Of a stretch of DNA of 64,000 nt, positions 6,087-54,938 are shown in pieces; within the stretch, counting starts at the first letter, position 1, and every line of letters starts with the position of its first letter. Source of the DNA: Natrinema marinum (GTDB taxonomy: Archaea > Halobacteriota > Halobacteria > Halobacteriales > Natrialbaceae); the NCBI RefSeq assembly GCF_024296685.1, contig NZ_CP100763.1:434001-498000 (forward strand), given 5' to 3'. The position numbers and the translations under genes are program-made. Below the pieces are notes generated by a model. The model was given only the letters and a program-made list of their open reading frames with translations. It was not told the origin of the DNA and made no database searches.

Positions 6087-7787
6087 ATGTACGACGAGGA
6101 CGAGCTCGAGGAGATCCGCGAGGCGGGCGAGCGGTGGGAGGCGGAGACGCTCGAGCCGACTCTCGAGCGCCACGGCGAACGGCAAGACCGGTTCGCGACG
6201 GTGTCGAACCACGAGGTCGATCGCCTCTACACGCCGGCGGATGTCTCCGAGACGGACTACCTCGAGGACCTCGGCTTTCCGGGCGAAGAGCCCTACACCC
6301 GCGGTCCGTACCCGACGATGTACCGCGGGCGGACGTGGACGATGCGTCAGTTCGCGGGCTTTGGCACCGCCGAGGAGACCAACGAGCGCTTCCACTACCT
6401 GATCGAGGAGGGCCAGACCGGCCTCTCGGTGGCCTTCGACATGCCGTCGCTGATGGGGCTGGACTCGGACGACCCGATGAGTGAGGGCGAGATCGGCAAG
6501 GAAGGCGTCGCGGTCGACACCCTCCGGGACATGGAGATCCTCTTCGACGGGATCGATCTGGCGGAGATATCTACGTCCTTTACCATCAATCCCTCCGCGC
6601 CGGTGATCTACGCGATGTACGTCGCGCTGGCCGACCGGCGGGGCGTTCCCCGCGACCAGCTTCGGGGCACCCTCCAGAACGACATGTTCAAGGAGTTTAT
6701 CGCCCAGAAGGAGTGGGTCATCCCGCCCGAGCCCTCGCTGGATCTGGTCACCGACGTCCTCGCGTTCAGTACCGACGAGACTCCGAAGTTCCACCCCATC
6801 TCGGTCTCGGGCTACCACATCCGCGAGGCCGGTTCGACGGCGGTCCAGGAACTGGCTTTCACCCTCGCGGACGGCTTCGGCTACGTCGAGGACGCCGTCG
6901 ACCGCGGGCTCGCGGTCGACGAGTCCGCGCCGCGGCTCTCCTTTTTCTTCAACTGCCACAACTCTTTCTTCGAAGAGATCGCGAAATTCCGCGCGGCCCG
7001 ACGGATCTACGCGCGCGTCATGGACGACTGGTACGACGCCGAAGCCGACGAGTCAAAGCGCCTCAAGTTCCACACGCAGACGGCGGGGCAGTCGCTGACG
7101 GCCCAGCAGCCGCTGAACAACGTCGCTCGAGTGACGATCCAGGCGCTGGCCGGCGTCCTCGGGGGCACCCAGTCGCTGCACACCAACAGCTTCGACGAGG
7201 CGCTGGCCCTGCCCGGCGAAAAGGCCGTCCGCGTCGCCCTGCGCACCCAGCAGATCATCGCCGAGGAGTCCGGCGCGGCCGACATTGTCGACCCGATGGG
7301 CGGCTCCTTCGCTGTCGAGGCGCTCACCGACCAGATCGAGGAGCGGGCGATGCGCTACATCGAGGAGATCCGCGAGATGGGCGACGGCTCCGTCCGCGAC
7401 GGCATCCTCCGCGGGATCGAGGAGGGCTACTTCCTCCGGGAGATTCAGGAGGCCTCCTACGAGTATCAAGAGCGCGTCGAGCGCGGCGAGGAGGTCGTCG
7501 TCGGCGTCAACGAGTACACCCTAGCGGAGGACACCAGCCCCGACATCCTCCGGATCGACGAGACCACGGCCGAGCGCCAGCTCGAGCGCCTCGAGTCGGT
7601 GAAAGCAGAGCGTGAGGAGGCGACCGTAGAGGCGGCGCTCGAGGCGCTCGACGACGCCTGTGAGCGCGACGAGAATACGATGCCGTACATCGTCGACGCG
7701 GTGAAGGCCTACGCGACGATGGGCGAGATCATGGGCGTCTTCGAGGAGCGGTACGGGGCCTACAGCGAGGAGATCGGGCTGGCCTGA
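6087..7787 (+). CDS. Methylmalonyl-CoA mutase, large catalytic subunit
   Basis: A 566-aa catalytic (TIM-barrel) subunit that interconverts (R)-methylmalonyl-CoA and succinyl-CoA. The sequences YPTMYRGRTWTMRQFAGFGT, FHTQTAGQSLTAQQPLNN and GGTQSLHTNSFDEAL are diagnostic. There is no C-terminal cobalamin-binding domain (no DxHxxG), so it must pair with a separate small B12-binding subunit, as in many archaea; none is encoded nearby. In haloarchaea it acts in propionate/odd-chain metabolism and the methylaspartate cycle. It stands alone between a reductase and small membrane-protein genes. Confidence 0.92.
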   Translation: MYDEDELEEIREAGERWEAETLEPTLERHGERQDRFATVSNHEVDRLYTPADVSETDYLEDLGFPGEEPYTRGPYPTMYRGRTWTMRQFAGFGTAEETNERFHYLIEEGQTGLSVAFDMPSLMGLDSDDPMSEGEIGKEGVAVDTLRDMEILFDGIDLAEISTSFTINPSAPVIYAMYVALADRRGVPRDQLRGTLQNDMFKEFIAQKEWVIPPEPSLDLVTDVLAFSTDETPKFHPISVSGYHIREAGSTAVQELAFTLADGFGYVEDAVDRGLAVDESAPRLSFFFNCHNSFFEEIAKFRAARRIYARVMDDWYDAEADESKRLKFHTQTAGQSLTAQQPLNNVARVTIQALAGVLGGTQSLHTNSFDEALALPGEKAVRVALRTQQIIAEESGAADIVDPMGGSFAVEALTDQIEERAMRYIEEIREMGDGSVRDGILRGIEEGYFLREIQEASYEYQERVERGEEVVVGVNEYTLAEDTSPDILRIDETTAERQLERLESVKAEREEATVEAALEALDDACERDENTMPYIVDAVKAYATMGEIMGVFEERYGAYSEEIGLA

Positions 7788-30544: not shown

Positions 30545-31711
30545 TCAGTCGGCGCCGGCGGGGGCCGCGTCCGCGTCGGCTTCCTCGCGATGGTCCACGG
30601 GGAACCACGCGAGCTCGTGGTCGGCGGTGACGCGGACGCGGACGCGCTCGTCCAGATCGATCCGGTCAGAGTGGTTGTGCATGCACTCGATCGTCTCGCC
30701 GCCGTCGAGTTCCACGCGATAGAGGACGGTCGGGCCCAGATAGCGCCGGTAGACGACGCGGCCGTCGGCCGCAGCCTCGTCGGCAGGGTAGGCCGTCACG
30801 TCGTCCGGGCGGACGAGCAGGTCGACGGCGGAGCCGTCGTACTGGTGGGCCAGTCCGTGCACGTCGTCCCGGAGGACGCGACCCAGCGCGGTGTCGACGC
30901 TGTCGCCGCGGACCTCGCCAGAGAGGAAACTCGCGTGGCCGAGGAAGCCGGCGACGAACCGCGACTCGGGCTGCTGGAAGACCCGCTGGGGCCGATCGAT
31001 CTGCTCGATGTCGCCGTCGTTCATCACGGCGACGCGGTCGGAGATCGACAGCGCCTCCTCCTGATCGTGTGTGACGGAGATGGCCGTGACGCCCGTCTCC
31101 TTGATAATTCGGCGGACCTCCTCGCGCATCTCGACGCGCAGATCCACGTCGAGGCTCGAGAAGGGTTCGTCGAGCAATAGCATCTCGGGTTCGGGGGCTA
31201 GCGAGCGCGCGAGCGCGATCCGTTGGCGCTGCCCGCCGGAGAGTTCGTCGGGGTAGTGGTCGCCGTGGGCCTCGAGGCCGACGAGTTCGAGGAGGTCGTC
31301 GACGCGGGCCTCGCGGTCGGCGTCGTCCCAGTCCTGCAGGCCGAAGGCGACGTTTTCGCGGGCGCTCAGGTGGGGAAACAGCGCGAAGTCCTGAAAGACG
31401 ACGCCGATATCGCGGTTCTCGGGCGGGACGAAGCGTCCGTCGCCGGAGACGGTCTCGTCCTCGAGGCGGACCTGGCCGGCGGTCGGCCGCTCGAGGCCGG
31501 CGATCAGCCGGAGCGTCGTGGTCTTGCCACACCCCGACGGCCCGAGGAGGGTCAGGATCTCGCCCTCGCGGACGGACAGCGAGAGGTCGCCGATGACGTC
31601 CTGTTTGCCGTACCGTTTCGCGATGCCGTCGAGTTCGAGTACCGGTTCCTCGGTCGTCGACTCCGGTGTCGGTTCTTCGACCGCCGTCGTAAGCAGTTCT
31701 CCGTTCCCCAT
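30545..31711 (-). CDS. ABC transporter ATP-binding protein (FbpC/PotA class), probable iron uptake
   Basis: A 388-aa ATPase. Walker A GPSGCGKTT is at about 57-65, then the Q-loop FQDFALFPHLSARENVAFGL, the signature LSGGQRQRIALARSLAPEP, Walker B MLLLDEPFSSLD and the H-loop VTHD. A C-terminal TOBE region (about 245-375) is typical of importers for ferric iron, polyamine or sugar. No permease or binding protein adjoins it. I prefer ATG 31711 over ATG 31756, because the TATA element (TATAAG on the minus strand, 31766-31771) implies transcription begins near 31742, downstream of 31756, and CGGAGAG precedes 31711. The promoter carries a metal-regulator-like palindrome, which supports an iron role. 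Confidence 0.85.
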   Translation of the reverse strand: MGNGELLTTAVEEPTPESTTEEPVLELDGIAKRYGKQDVIGDLSLSVREGEILTLLGPSGCGKTTTLRLIAGLERPTAGQVRLEDETVSGDGRFVPPENRDIGVVFQDFALFPHLSARENVAFGLQDWDDADREARVDDLLELVGLEAHGDHYPDELSGGQRQRIALARSLAPEPEMLLLDEPFSSLDVDLRVEMREEVRRIIKETGVTAISVTHDQEEALSISDRVAVMNDGDIEQIDRPQRVFQQPESRFVAGFLGHASFLSGEVRGDSVDTALGRVLRDDVHGLAHQYDGSAVDLLVRPDDVTAYPADEAAADGRVVYRRYLGPTVLYRVELDGGETIECMHNHSDRIDLDERVRVRVTADHELAWFPVDHREEADADAAPAGAD

Positions 31712-31747
31712 AAATCGACTCTCCGGCGCGAGCCGGCGTTCGTCCTC

Positions 31748-31763
31748 TTTAGGCATGCCTAAA
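31748..31763. promoter_or_regulatory. Perfect 16-bp palindrome, candidate DtxR/SirR-family operator
   Basis: TTTAGGCATGCCTAAA lies between the TATA element and the predicted transcription start of the ABC ATPase gene. TTAGGC-type half sites are characteristic of iron- and manganese-dependent DtxR/IdeR/MntR regulators, and a DtxR-family gene is in the same window (50137). Binding here would block transcription when metal is plentiful. Confidence 0.6.
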
Positions 31764-31817
31764 CGCTTATAGCTGCCGGTCCGTACCGCCTGCCGGGAAC
31801 CGAAGAAGGTGGAGACG

Positions 31818-50136: not shown

Positions 50137-50565
50137 TCAGTCCGCGCGACCGCCGACCTCGAGCAGCTCACAGCAGTCTGCGTCAGGGTCGAAACAGTCA
50201 GGACACTGGTCGGGGCGGTCGATGATCGTATCGAGCCGTTCGGCGACGGTGCCGTCGATAACGCTTTCGAGCGCGCGGGCCTCGTCACGAAACTCCTCGA
50301 CCTCGAGGACGTTCGCGAGGAACCGCTCGATGATACAGTAGGTCTGCAACGCGTTGTGGGCGCGCTCGAGGCCCTCGTCGGTCAGGCTGGCTCCCTTGTA
50401 CTTCTCGTGGTCGACGAGGTCTCGATCCTCGAGTTTGCCGATCATTTCGTTGACACTGGCCGGACTCACCTCGAGTAGGTCGGCGAGGGTGCCGGTCGAT
50501 GCGGGGCCATCTTCGATGCGCTGAGCCAAGTAGATCGCTTTGAGATATTGGTCGGCAGTGTTCAT
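50137..50565 (-). CDS. DtxR/SirR-family metal-dependent transcriptional regulator
   Basis: A 142-aa regulator. The N-terminal winged helix (MNTADQYLKAIYLAQRIEDG, GTLADLLEVSPASVNEMIGKL) and the dimerisation/metal region (ERFLANVLEVEEFRDEARAL) follow the DtxR pattern. The Cys-rich end, CPDCFDPDADCCELL, is common in archaeal members and may contribute to metal binding. The SH3 domain is absent. The ATG at 50565 has GGAGGGTGG just upstream, so it is probably read from the transcript of the ferritin-like gene. It would be expected to recognise TTTAGG-type palindromes such as 31748-31763. Confidence 0.88.
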   Translation of the reverse strand: MNTADQYLKAIYLAQRIEDGPASTGTLADLLEVSPASVNEMIGKLEDRDLVDHEKYKGASLTDEGLERAHNALQTYCIIERFLANVLEVEEFRDEARALESVIDGTVAERLDTIIDRPDQCPDCFDPDADCCELLEVGGRAD

Positions 50566-50689: not shown

Positions 50690-51184
50690 TCATGCTCTGT
50701 GTTCCATGATCTCGGTCACTTCCTCGACGCCCTCTTTTTCCTCCTCCCGAATCGCGTACAGCGTTTCGAGCAGGCGGTCGCGATCGACCGCGAATTCGGC
50801 GTCGGATGCCTCGATCGCTTGAATCAGGTCGTCGTAGAACTTGTACGCCGTCTCCTCGTTCGCTAACTGGTCGTAGAGGACGCCGTCCGTGTCCTCCGGT
50901 GGCCCGTACTGGGCGTCGACCAGCGCATTGATCTCCTCGTAACCGACCGTTTCGGCCTCGAGATCGTCGATCAGCGCCTCGAGTCGCTCGCGGTGGTCGG
51001 CCGACTCGGCGGCGGCCTCGGCGAGCAACTCCTCCACCTCCTCGTCGAACTCCGCCCGCTCTTCGGGGGGCAGGGACTCGATGTGGTGGGCGGCGCGTGA
51101 CTCGACGAGTTCCTCCAGCACGACGCCGATCTGGAGCAATCGGGTCAGCTGGTGGTCGCTCGAGACGCGCTGTCCCAGACTCAT
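50690..51184 (-). CDS. Ferritin-like domain protein
   Basis: A 164-aa four-helix protein with the diiron pattern of rubrerythrin/ferritin-like proteins: GVVLEELVESRAAHHIESL, then AAESADHRERLEALI, LANEETAYKFYDDLIQAIEA. Likely iron storage or peroxide handling. It precedes the DtxR-family gene on the same strand by 124 bp and probably shares its transcript. ATG 51184 was chosen over 51193, because the ACATAAGTA element (about 51210-51216) is 28 nt away from it. Confidence 0.75.
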   Translation of the reverse strand: MSLGQRVSSDHQLTRLLQIGVVLEELVESRAAHHIESLPPEERAEFDEEVEELLAEAAAESADHRERLEALIDDLEAETVGYEEINALVDAQYGPPEDTDGVLYDQLANEETAYKFYDDLIQAIEASDAEFAVDRDRLLETLYAIREEEKEGVEEVTEIMEHRA

Positions 51185-51315: not shown

Positions 51316-52536
51316 CTATTCGCGCTGGCGCAGCCGAGCGCCGATCAGTTCTTGCAGGTCGTCGCGGAGTTCGTCGACGTCGATCTCCTCTAAGACCGGC
51401 ACGAAGAAGCCCTCGACGAGCATGTTACGCGCGGCACGCGGGTTGACGCCGCGGGAGGTCATATAGAGCAGGTCCTCCTGGTCGATCTGGCCGACCGTCG
51501 CGGAGTGGCTCGCCTCGGTGTCGTGGTTGTTGATGATCAGCTTCGGGGAGGCGTCGGCCTCGCTCTCGTCGGAGAGCATCAGCGTGTTTTCACGCTGGTA
51601 GGAGCTGGTGTCCCAGGCGTCCTTTCCGACGTCCTGAACGCCCTCGTAGACCGAGCGGGCCACGTCGTCGGTGACGCCGCGGGTGACGAGGTCGGCCGTC
51701 GTGTGCTCTGCCCGGTGCCAGACCTTCGCGTCGAGGTCGAAGTGCTGGTCGTTGTGGCCGTAGAAGGCCCCGACGATCTGCGTTTCCGACGAGTCGCCGC
51801 TGAGCGTCGTCGAGACTTCGGTCTTCGTCAGCTGGGTGCCGAGGTTGCCCTCGATCCAGTCGATAGTGGCGTAGGTGTCGGCGACGCCGCGCTTGACGGT
51901 GAAGTTGTAGGCCTCCTCCGAGAGGTTCTGGAGGCTACCGTACTGGACGTAGCTGTTCTCACCGGCGGCGACCTCGACGATGCCGCTGTAGTACTGCTCG
52001 TCCTGTTCGGCGCCGGTCGACTGGCGCTCGAGGATCGTGACCGAGGACGACTCCTCGGTGACGACGAGCGTGTAGTTGAACAGCGAGCGGGAGTTCTGCT
52101 CGGTGCGGACGGTGACGTCTTCGGCGTCGACGCCCTCGGGGACGTAGATGACCGTCCCGGTGCTGAAGAGTGCGGTCGACAGCGCCGTCAGGTAGTTCTC
52201 CTGCGGATCGACGATGGAGCCGAAGTGCTCCTTGAGGAGCTCCTCGTGCTCTTGGACCGCCTCGGCCCACGGGAGGACCTCCGCGTCCTCGGGGCCGACC
52301 TGGTCTTTGTCCTCGGCCGCGTTCAGCGGGTCCACGAGCGACTCGAAGTCCAGTTCGTGGAGGTTCGTCCAGTCTCGGCCCGGCGTCCGGATCACGTCCG
52401 GCATGTCGAGGTCCTCGAGCGCCGCGAGCGCCTCGAGACGCGTTTCCGTGAGCCAGTCGGGCTCGTCGAGTCCCTCGCTGATCTCGCGTACCTGTGCTTC
52501 CGTCAGATTGGCGTGTACCTGTGTTCCGGCGCTCAT
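51316..52536 (-). CDS. sufD: Fe-S cluster assembly protein SufD
   Basis: A 406-aa SufBD-family protein. The C-terminal beta-helix core (EVSTTLSGDSSETQIVGAFY; HAEHTTADLVTRGVTDDVA) and the closing TVGQIDQEDLLYMTSRGVNP are typical. It assembles with SufB and the ATPase SufC into the cluster scaffold. It starts one base after the SufB stop, so it is translated from the suf operon. Shorter than SufB, which is normal. Confidence 0.92.
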   Translation of the reverse strand: MSAGTQVHANLTEAQVREISEGLDEPDWLTETRLEALAALEDLDMPDVIRTPGRDWTNLHELDFESLVDPLNAAEDKDQVGPEDAEVLPWAEAVQEHEELLKEHFGSIVDPQENYLTALSTALFSTGTVIYVPEGVDAEDVTVRTEQNSRSLFNYTLVVTEESSSVTILERQSTGAEQDEQYYSGIVEVAAGENSYVQYGSLQNLSEEAYNFTVKRGVADTYATIDWIEGNLGTQLTKTEVSTTLSGDSSETQIVGAFYGHNDQHFDLDAKVWHRAEHTTADLVTRGVTDDVARSVYEGVQDVGKDAWDTSSYQRENTLMLSDESEADASPKLIINNHDTEASHSATVGQIDQEDLLYMTSRGVNPRAARNMLVEGFFVPVLEEIDVDELRDDLQELIGARLRQRE

Positions 52537-52537
52537 A

Positions 52538-53968
52538 TTATCCGAGGCTTCCCTCCATCTCGAGTTCGATGAGACGGTTGAGTTCGACGGCGTACTCGAT
52601 CGGCAGTTCCTCCGTGATCGGCTCGATGAAGCCGGCGACGATCATCTTCTTGGCGTCGTCGTCGTCCAGACCGCGGCTCTGGAGGTAGAAGATGTCCTCG
52701 TCGCCGATCTTGCCGACGGTCGCCTCGTGTGCGACGTCGACCTTCGACTCCTCGATCTCCATGTACGGCATGGTGTCCGAGGTGGATTCGTTGTCGAACA
52801 TCAGCGCGTCACACTCGACGGCGGTCGAGGAGTTCTCGGCGCCGTCGGCGATGTGGACGAGGCCGCGGTAGTTGGTGCGGCCGCCGTCTTTGGAGATCGA
52901 TTTGGACTCGATGGTCGAACTCGTGTCGGGCGCGTTGTGGTAGACCTTCGCGCCGGTGTCGATGTCCTGACCCTCGCCCGCGAAGGCGATGGTGATGTGG
53001 GTGTCGGTCGCACCGCGCCCTTTGAGGATCGTACACGGGTAGAGCATGGTGGCCTTCGAGCCCATGCTGCCCGAGACCCACTCCATCGTACCGTTCTCCT
53101 CGCAGATGGCGCGCTTGGTGTTCAGGTTGAAGGTGTTTTTCGACCAGTTCTGCACGGTCGAGTACTGGACGTGTGCGTCTTCGCCGACGAAGACTTCGAC
53201 GCCACCCGAGTGCAGGTTGTGGGTGCCGTACTTGGGCGCGGAACAGCCCTCGATGTAGTGGACTTCGGAGCCCTCCTCAGCGATGATGAGAGTGTGCTCG
53301 AACTGGCCCATCCCCTCGGAGTTCATCCGGAAGTAGGCCTGCACGGGCATCTCGACGGTGACGCCCTCGGGGACGTAGACGAACGACCCGCCGGACCAGA
53401 CGGCTCCGTGCAGCGCGGCGAACTTGTTGTCGCTCGGCGGCACGCAGGTCGTCATGAAGTGCTCTTTGACGAGTTCGGGGTGCTCCTGGACCGCGCGGTC
53501 CATGTTCATGAAGATGACCCCCTTCTCCTCCCACTGTTCTTGCATGTTCTGGTAGACGACCTCGGACTCGTACTGGGCGCCGACGCCGGAGAGCGCGTTC
53601 TTCTCGGCCTCCGGAATGCCCAGTTTGTCGAAGGTGTCTTTGATTTCGTCGGGCAGCTCCGTCCAGTCGTCGACGCCTTCGCGCTTGTCGACGTCCGGAC
53701 GGATGTAGGGGATGATCTCCTCGACGTCCAGTTGGGAGAGGTCGGGCATGCCGGGCCAGTCCGACGGCATCGGCATGTTGTGGTACTGCTTGAGCGCGCG
53801 CAGGCGGCGCTCTAACATCCACTCGGGCTCGTCTTTGTCCTCGGAGATCATGCGGATGACCTCCTCGGTCAGGCCCTTGTCGGATTTGACCGCGGCGTTT
53901 TGCTCTTTCTTGAACTCGAACCGGGCCTCGGTGTCGGTCTCTTTGAGATGGTCTTGATCGGAACTCAT
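52538..53968 (-). CDS. sufB: Fe-S cluster assembly scaffold SufB
   Basis: A 476-aa scaffold protein. RMISEDKDEPEWMLERRLRA at the N-terminus, then MQVYFRMNSEGMGQFEHTL-like and IEGCSAPKYGTHNLHSGGVE are SufB signatures. It lies between sufC and sufD; the ATG is 61 bp downstream of the sufC stop. Highly conserved and complete. Confidence 0.95.
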   Translation of the reverse strand: MSSDQDHLKETDTEARFEFKKEQNAAVKSDKGLTEEVIRMISEDKDEPEWMLERRLRALKQYHNMPMPSDWPGMPDLSQLDVEEIIPYIRPDVDKREGVDDWTELPDEIKDTFDKLGIPEAEKNALSGVGAQYESEVVYQNMQEQWEEKGVIFMNMDRAVQEHPELVKEHFMTTCVPPSDNKFAALHGAVWSGGSFVYVPEGVTVEMPVQAYFRMNSEGMGQFEHTLIIAEEGSEVHYIEGCSAPKYGTHNLHSGGVEVFVGEDAHVQYSTVQNWSKNTFNLNTKRAICEENGTMEWVSGSMGSKATMLYPCTILKGRGATDTHITIAFAGEGQDIDTGAKVYHNAPDTSSTIESKSISKDGGRTNYRGLVHIADGAENSSTAVECDALMFDNESTSDTMPYMEIEESKVDVAHEATVGKIGDEDIFYLQSRGLDDDDAKKMIVAGFIEPITEELPIEYAVELNRLIELEMEGSLG

Positions 53969-54029
53969 TGGTTGATGTGGTTAGTGGTTACGGCTGTAGC
54001 GTTATTACGGTTGTTCTAGTCGAATCCGG

Positions 54030-54938
54030 TTACGCGGTGCCGTAGACTTCCTCGCGGACCCAGTCGTACCCCTTGTCCTCGAGCTCTTCTGCGAGCTCCG
54101 GACCGCCGCTCTTGGCGATCTGGCCGTCGAGCATCACGTGGACGTGATCGGGCTCGACGTAATCGAGGATGCGCTGGTAGTGGGTGATCTGCAGGATGCC
54201 GGTGCCCTGCTCGTCGCGAAGCGCGTTGATACCGGCGGAGACGTCCTGCAGCCGGTCGATGTCGAGCCCGGAGTCGATCTCGTCGAGCACGGCGATCGAC
54301 GGCTCAAGGATGGCTGCCTGCAGCACTTCGTTCTGTTTCTTCTCGCCGCCGGAGAAGCCGGCGTTGAGGTAGCGCTGGGCGAACTTTTCGTCCATGTCCA
54401 GTTGCTCCATCTTCTCTTGCAGGATCTTCTGGAACTCGGCGACGCCGACCTCGCCCTCGTCGGCGGGGCCTTCCATCGGCGAGGTCTCGAAGCCGTCGTC
54501 CTCGGCCTCTGCTTCTTCGCTTTCCTCGTCCTCGAAGAGCTCCTCGCGCTCCTCGATCTTGGCGTTCAGCGCCGTGCGGAGGAAGTTCGTCATCGTGACG
54601 CCCTCGATCTCGGCGGGATACTGGAAGCCGAGGAAGATGCCGAGCGCGGCGCGCTCGTTGGGCTCGAGATCGAGCAGGTCCCACGTGCGCTGGTCCTCGT
54701 CGATCTCGATCTCGTCGCCGAACTCGCCCTCCTCGAGGTGGAGCAGGACCTCGCCGTCGGTGACCTCGTAGGCCGGGTGGCCGGCGATGACCTTCGCGGT
54801 CGTGGACTTCCCGGAGCCGTTCGGCCCCATCAGGGCGTGGATCTCGCCGGATTTGACCTCGAGATCGACGCCCTCGAGAATTTTCTCGTCGCCCTCCGCT
54901 ACTTCCGCGTGCAGGTTGCGTAGTTCGAGACGTGCCAT
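54030..54938 (-). CDS. sufC: Fe-S cluster assembly ATPase SufC
   Basis: A 302-aa ABC ATPase that drives SufB/SufD. Walker A GPNGSGKST (38-46), signature GFSGGEKKQNEV (about 194-205) and Walker B IAVLDEIDSGLD are intact. It is about 50 residues longer than bacterial SufC, owing to an acidic insert at about 130-165 (EEREELFEDEESEEAEAEDD), a halophile feature. First gene of the suf operon. Its promoter contains an 18-bp palindrome at the expected transcription start. Confidence 0.95.
   Translation of the reverse strand: MARLELRNLHAEVAEGDEKILEGVDLEVKSGEIHALMGPNGSGKSTTAKVIAGHPAYEVTDGEVLLHLEEGEFGDEIEIDEDQRTWDLLDLEPNERAALGIFLGFQYPAEIEGVTMTNFLRTALNAKIEEREELFEDEESEEAEAEDDGFETSPMEGPADEGEVGVAEFQKILQEKMEQLDMDEKFAQRYLNAGFSGGEKKQNEVLQAAILEPSIAVLDEIDSGLDIDRLQDVSAGINALRDEQGTGILQITHYQRILDYVEPDHVHVMLDGQIAKSGGPELAEELEDKGYDWVREEVYGTA

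Follow-up and report, generated by a model that had tools for sequence, protein, structure and literature searches.

What does an exact palindrome do in the promoter of a solitary ABC-transporter ATPase gene, which protein reads it, and which importer does the ATPase serve? These questions arise from the window analysed here, a 64-kb stretch (C1:434001-498000) of the 3.77 Mb genome of Natrinema marinum. An earlier note on this DNA had proposed that the palindrome is a DtxR-type operator imposing iron-dependent repression on an FbpC-like gene. Our analysis makes it quite probable that the palindrome serves as operator for an iron-dependent repressor of the DtxR family (most likely TroR), and that the ATPase is the FbpC of a split FbpABC importer under shared control. 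Both a DtxR-family iron regulon and a detached importer ATPase are already known kinds; what makes this case useful is how clearly a dispersed importer appears to be tied together by a single operator, and that a natural loss serves as control.

The palindrome in the ATPase promoter

The ATPase gene and its control region comprise the following features.

30545-31711, minus strand: FbpC-like ATPase of a ferric-iron ABC importer, away from its permease (Pfam ABC_tran and TOBE_2; best PDB match 9j4r_B; operonic with FbpA-FbpB in relatives)
31723-31736, minus strand: CCGGC-N4-GCCGG, an inverted repeat of the presumed 5' UTR that nearly every genus promoter has
31748-31763, no strand assigned: candidate DtxR-type operator TTTAGGCATGCCTAAA, with a variable centre between half-sites that 28 of 29 orthologous promoters share
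31766-31771, minus strand: TATAAG, the TATA element as read from the sequence, in nearly all aligned promoters
31774-31780, minus strand: ACCGGCA block upstream of TATA, kept in genus promoters and possibly the BRE region

TTTAGGCATGCCTAAA forms an exact 16-base palindrome, so both the position and the perfect symmetry reported earlier are correct. On the minus strand, TATAAG (31771-31766) is followed after two bases by the operator (31763-31748) and, about 36 bases further, by the ATG at 31711, which is the conserved start codon. We infer that transcription starts near 31743, about 26 bp from the TATA centre and just 3' of the palindrome. The palindrome thus lies between TATA and start site as the earlier note had it, the start itself being placed by its distance from TATA. 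In the 64-kb window no second copy of TTTAGGCATGCCTAAA was found with up to three mismatches, where shuffles predict 0.03.

When 29 promoters of ATPase orthologues were fetched, the TTAGG...CCTAA half-sites were present in 28 of them, directly after TATA, whereas the four central bases varied (CATG, CGTG, CCCG, CACG, CTTG, CTCG, GCCG and others). The claim of a perfect palindrome therefore holds in this genome but its CATG centre is not conserved, being CGTG, CACG, CTCG or GCCG in relatives, and this variation rules out CATG as part of the operator. At the level of sequence, invariant half-sites around a free centre have the look of a protein-binding inverted repeat. Since an ATG lies within the CATG centre, gene calls may carry a false 15-residue upstream extension. 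The half-sites are like those of bacterial DtxR/IdeR operators, and we take TTAGG-Y-NN-R-CCTAA to resemble the core of the DtxR/IdeR consensus; unlike the bacterial systems, the promoter here is an archaeal TATA/TFB one, and the candidate regulator described below is without the SH3-like third domain and has most metal ligands changed.

In the presumed 5' UTR, the CCGGC-N4-GCCGG repeat touches a GGAG Shine-Dalgarno-like element (31724-31721). Its register is shifted in some species with pairing still kept, and the folding energy of the 5' UTR is weakly below that of shuffles (mean z -1.4).

Sites across the genome and the candidate regulon

TTAGG-N4-CCTAA occurs 15 times genome-wide against once for the reversed control. 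All 15 sites read TTAGGYNNRCCTAA, 14 of them lie outside called genes, and most come directly behind an A/T-rich, TATA-like stretch, with a start codon 19-51 bases further 3'. The earlier note had called for such a search, and the motif proved not to be scattered through coding DNA, the coding and intergenic densities being judged from these 15 sites and the reversed-pattern control. The pattern extends to relatives (the GenBank records found by name come mostly from Natrinema or other members of the Natrialbaceae): TTTAGGYNNRCCTAAA has 6-20 sites per genome in 29/29 genus genomes, compared to 0-1 for the control, and TTAGGYNNRCCTAA was found in 58 of 61 genomes across the order.

The sites occur above chance at promoters of iron-uptake genes, which are the ATPase, FbpA-FbpB, a FecCD permease operon and three genes for Peripla_BP_2-type binding proteins (two assigned by Pfam and the third by position). 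Among the other genes bearing sites are a truncated aminotransferase, a GMC-oxidoreductase pair, sugar-related genes and several DUF genes; the glycosyltransferases and DUF proteins in this set are not obvious iron genes. Together with the footprint across 28 orthologues, this regulon content argues for the proposed DtxR-type operator. It also provides a list of candidate iron-regulated Natrinema genes. Compared with the haloarchaeal DtxR-family regulons (TroR, Idr and SirR of Haloferax volcanii; Idr1, Idr2 and SirR of Halobacterium salinarum), the set is alike in its orthologous regulator, its iron-uptake targets and its palindromic promoter sites; what sets it apart is the placement of the sites, close to the start codon in most cases and between TATA and the inferred start at the ATPase.

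The truncated aminotransferase, a 150-residue piece, is preceded by two sites 36 bp apart, the gene piece and double site together covering 7078-7530 and 7602-7652 of locus L064 (C1:2837 kb). In the relative G001 (locus L325), a complete siderophore cluster stands behind the same double site; it comprises an aminotransferase, a decarboxylase, two synthetases of the IucA/IucC type and a Lys/Orn monooxygenase. By this comparison, Natrinema marinum seems to have lost the siderophore cluster and kept its control region.

Some further sites accompany genes of other kinds. Around FbpA-FbpB (L061 5443-16091), operators are found on the GMC-oxidoreductase pair, a GT2 glycosyltransferase and an RGP-like gene, and a one-mismatch site lies ahead of an LPG-synthase-like gene nearby. 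The DUF7551/DUF7552 and DUF7090 genes (L010 1538-2467 and L011 1578-2273) carry one or two operators.

The ATPase and its probable FbpA-FbpB partner

The ATPase has intact Walker A, LSGGQ and Walker B motifs, and its best PDB match is chain B of 9j4r, the ATPase of an iron ABC transporter (1.8e-86). FbpB, a fused two-domain permease, finds its best solved match in chain A of the same complex (7.6e-75). The best solved relatives of FbpA are ferric-binding proteins (7w3w, 9.6e-46), and the Tyr-Tyr dyad of FbpA, which binds iron, is kept in 37/38 homologues. The FbpA-FbpB operon is located at 2.26 Mb, 1.8 Mb from the ATPase, under its own operator of the same kind; no ATPase gene was found at that locus. 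In 15 relatives, FbpB and an ATPase homologue downstream of it share an operon, whose first gene is preceded by a full or one-letter-off operator in 13 cases. Because FbpA-FbpB is without an ATPase, because ATPase and FbpB share the 9j4r match and because the genes form a joint operon in relatives, the ATPase is almost certainly, on this comparative evidence, the detached FbpC of a ferric importer with FbpA and FbpB.

The separation of the ATPase from its permease, proposed earlier, is thus borne out. The label FbpC-like was also right, though the protein stays below the NCBIfam equivalog cut-offs for FbpC: the ATPase scored 292.9 bits against the 496 required by the ferric ATPase model NF008513, and no family exceeded its cut-off among the 25 matches listed. 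This miss denies the narrow equivalog name only, the ferric role resting on context and structure matches. Regulon content, the operonic arrangement in relatives and the solved-structure matches likewise favour the link to iron that the earlier note had suggested.

The system resembles FbpABC/HitABC importers in the Tyr dyad of FbpA, the fused two-domain FbpB and the TOBE-type ATPase, but differs from them in that, in this genus, the ATPase gene lies elsewhere and has an operator to itself. In having the ATPase gene apart from permease genes it is like FhuC of Staphylococcus aureus, MsmX and MsiK. MsmX serves sugar importers and FhuC serves iron importers of S. aureus, whereas here one clear client is evident.

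Of the 61 genomes, 56 have ATPase and FbpB together, four have neither (three of these four are incomplete drafts) and one, G027, has the ATPase without FbpB. In its ATPase promoter the operator is gone, with TTTTACGCCCCCGTTCGA in its place, while 14 sites are kept elsewhere in the genome and the ATPase motifs are intact. This genome, with its permease absent, its operator gone and its ATPase kept, provides a built-in natural control. We know of no earlier description of a detached ATPase as a target of a haloarchaeal DtxR regulon, nor of an operator loss of this type. As a side observation, the G027 ATPase sits on a longer branch of the tree than the ATPases of the rest of the genus.

In the ATPase tree, operonic and separate forms are intermixed, and well-supported branches force at least 5-6 changes between them. 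An operator of their own accompanies separate ATPases at 40 of 45 loci, compared to 1 of 15 for operonic ones (p 9e-9), and the difference persists after thinning the genus (20/24 versus 1/15, p 5e-6); phylogenetically independent pairs gave two to three cases for the association and none against, a trend short of significance. In certain members of the genus, FbpB too lies apart from FbpA, under an operator of its own. Sister species can combine the same ATPase with quite different versions of FbpB. The case illustrates how a membrane machine can survive the break-up of its operon, shared control probably taking the place of shared transcription.

The candidate regulator and the reading of the operator

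About 19 kb from the palindrome lies a cluster with the following genes.

50137-50565, minus strand: DtxR-family regulator (Pfam Fe_dep_repress and Fe_dep_repr_C), orthologue of TroR (HVO_0863) by synteny and primer match
50690-51184, minus strand: ferritin/Dps-fold protein (AlphaFold model, VIA-align), adjoining TroR in 90 of 92 loci
51316-54938, minus strand: sufD, sufB and sufC, in a gene order kept in Haloferax (ABC_tran match for 54030-54938)

The suf names are our reading of the sequences, except for the gene at 54030-54938 with its ABC_tran match. Both neighbours announced by the earlier note are in place: Pfam identifies the DtxR-family gene, and the ferritin-like protein had no family-model match, but its predicted structure is a four-helix bundle of the ferritin/Dps type (Z up to 16.8). 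Beside the DtxR gene, sufD, sufB and sufC were found in 73, 73 and 64 of the 92 loci, respectively, and the order sufC-sufB-sufD-ferritin-like-DtxR was found in three Haloferax species. A primer flanking HVO_0863 has been published (PMC6801745), and it lies 559 bp upstream of the Haloferax DtxR start, with no mismatches in two species and one in the third; the reverse primer matched poorly. TroR (HVO_0863) is listed among iron-homeostasis regulators (PMC11349517). Since HVO_0863 is TroR, the gene order is shared and the primer matches, synteny and sequence mark the gene at 50137-50565 as orthologous to TroR of Haloferax volcanii. TroR is reported to be the primary iron regulator of H. volcanii (Martinez Pastor et al. 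2024). The TroR orthologue is the likeliest candidate to bind the operator.

Our computations show the conservation of the operator, its regulon membership and the pairing of the ATPase with FbpA-FbpB; we infer that TroR binds the site, that the effect is repression and that iron is the signal. When iron is plentiful, a metal-bound repressor dimer would sit between TATA and start site and block transcription, and when iron is scarce the repressor would leave the operator. Through the same kind of operator at both loci, ATPase, FbpA and FbpB would be made together despite their distant genes.

The metal chemistry of TroR is less clear-cut. The orthologue has the winged-helix and dimerisation fold of DtxR/MntR proteins. 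The classical metal ligands, which we take to be D7, H76, E80, H95, E99, E102 and H103 of SloR and their equivalents in DtxR and MntR, are mostly absent from 124 TroR orthologues aligned with SloR: the replaced positions hold Q8, Y78, mostly R95, R99 and S103, and only the two glutamates E82 and E102 are kept. C79, C123 and C126 are invariant in the 124 orthologues, and C134 is present in 121 of them. A distant homologue (locus L182) has both the classical ligands and a CPxC motif. Metal-activated binding of the usual kind is thus not assured for TroR, and the ligand loss weakens the plain label of an iron-activated DtxR and raises the question of how this protein senses metal. It is possible that TroR senses iron via a cysteine-based site (C79, C123, C126, C134). 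A wider idea, which we put forward tentatively and think more doubtful than not, is that haloarchaeal ferric importers are assembled by regulon, with FbpA, FbpB and FbpC repeatedly moved apart and each keeping or regaining an operator, and that TroR senses iron at a cysteine site rather than the classical one, perhaps as Fe(Cys)4 or an iron-sulphur cluster from the adjoining suf genes.

The genome encodes two further DtxR paralogues (C1:1309874-1310554, and C1:2344552-2345316 beside a putative metal ABC importer), and one of them could be the main reader of the operator, perhaps with manganese as a co-signal, leaving TroR another role. Both have retained the classical metal ligands together with the DNA-binding domain, and several relatives possess a fourth DtxR-like gene that itself bears the operator, which points to a regulatory network of several members. 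We nonetheless hold this reading unlikely, as it is TroR that has been named as iron regulator for Haloferax (PMC11349517) and the targets are ferric and siderophore systems, not manganese transporters.

Doubt could also fall on the client of the ATPase, which might be a shared enzyme with FbpAB as one client among several, like MsmX or FhuC. Detached importer ATPase genes of this shared type exist (PMC10147376, PMC7658222), and the FbpB versions served by the same ATPase in sister species are 55% or 85% identical. However, in a survey of FbpB relatives in this genome, five of the permeases that have a close ATPase paralogue have it within a few kb, and FbpB is the clear unpaired permease among them; where FbpB is missing either the ATPase or its operator has been lost (G027, G028). 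A shared ATPase is thus improbable, more so than another reader of the operator. Least credible by far is a chance or structural palindrome without regulatory role. A lone palindrome in one promoter would be weak evidence, but this one recurs in 28 orthologous promoters, outnumbers its control by 15 to 1 genome-wide and was lost in a lineage without the permease; control counts and conservation rule out chance. The preferred reading thus remains an iron-responsive DtxR-family operator, probably TroR's, and it names FbpA-FbpB as the likely partner of the ATPase.

Some relatives add a layer to this control. G001 and G004 have an extra small DtxR-like gene with an operator, beside a dps-type gene (L328 2488-2865 and L329 2888-3265). 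In Haloferax volcanii TroR represses Idr, and the operator-bearing extra gene fits a hierarchy of this TroR-over-Idr type. No close extra DtxR gene of that kind was found in the genome of the window. In that genome, a 56-residue gene with an operator lies near a dps gene (locus L068).
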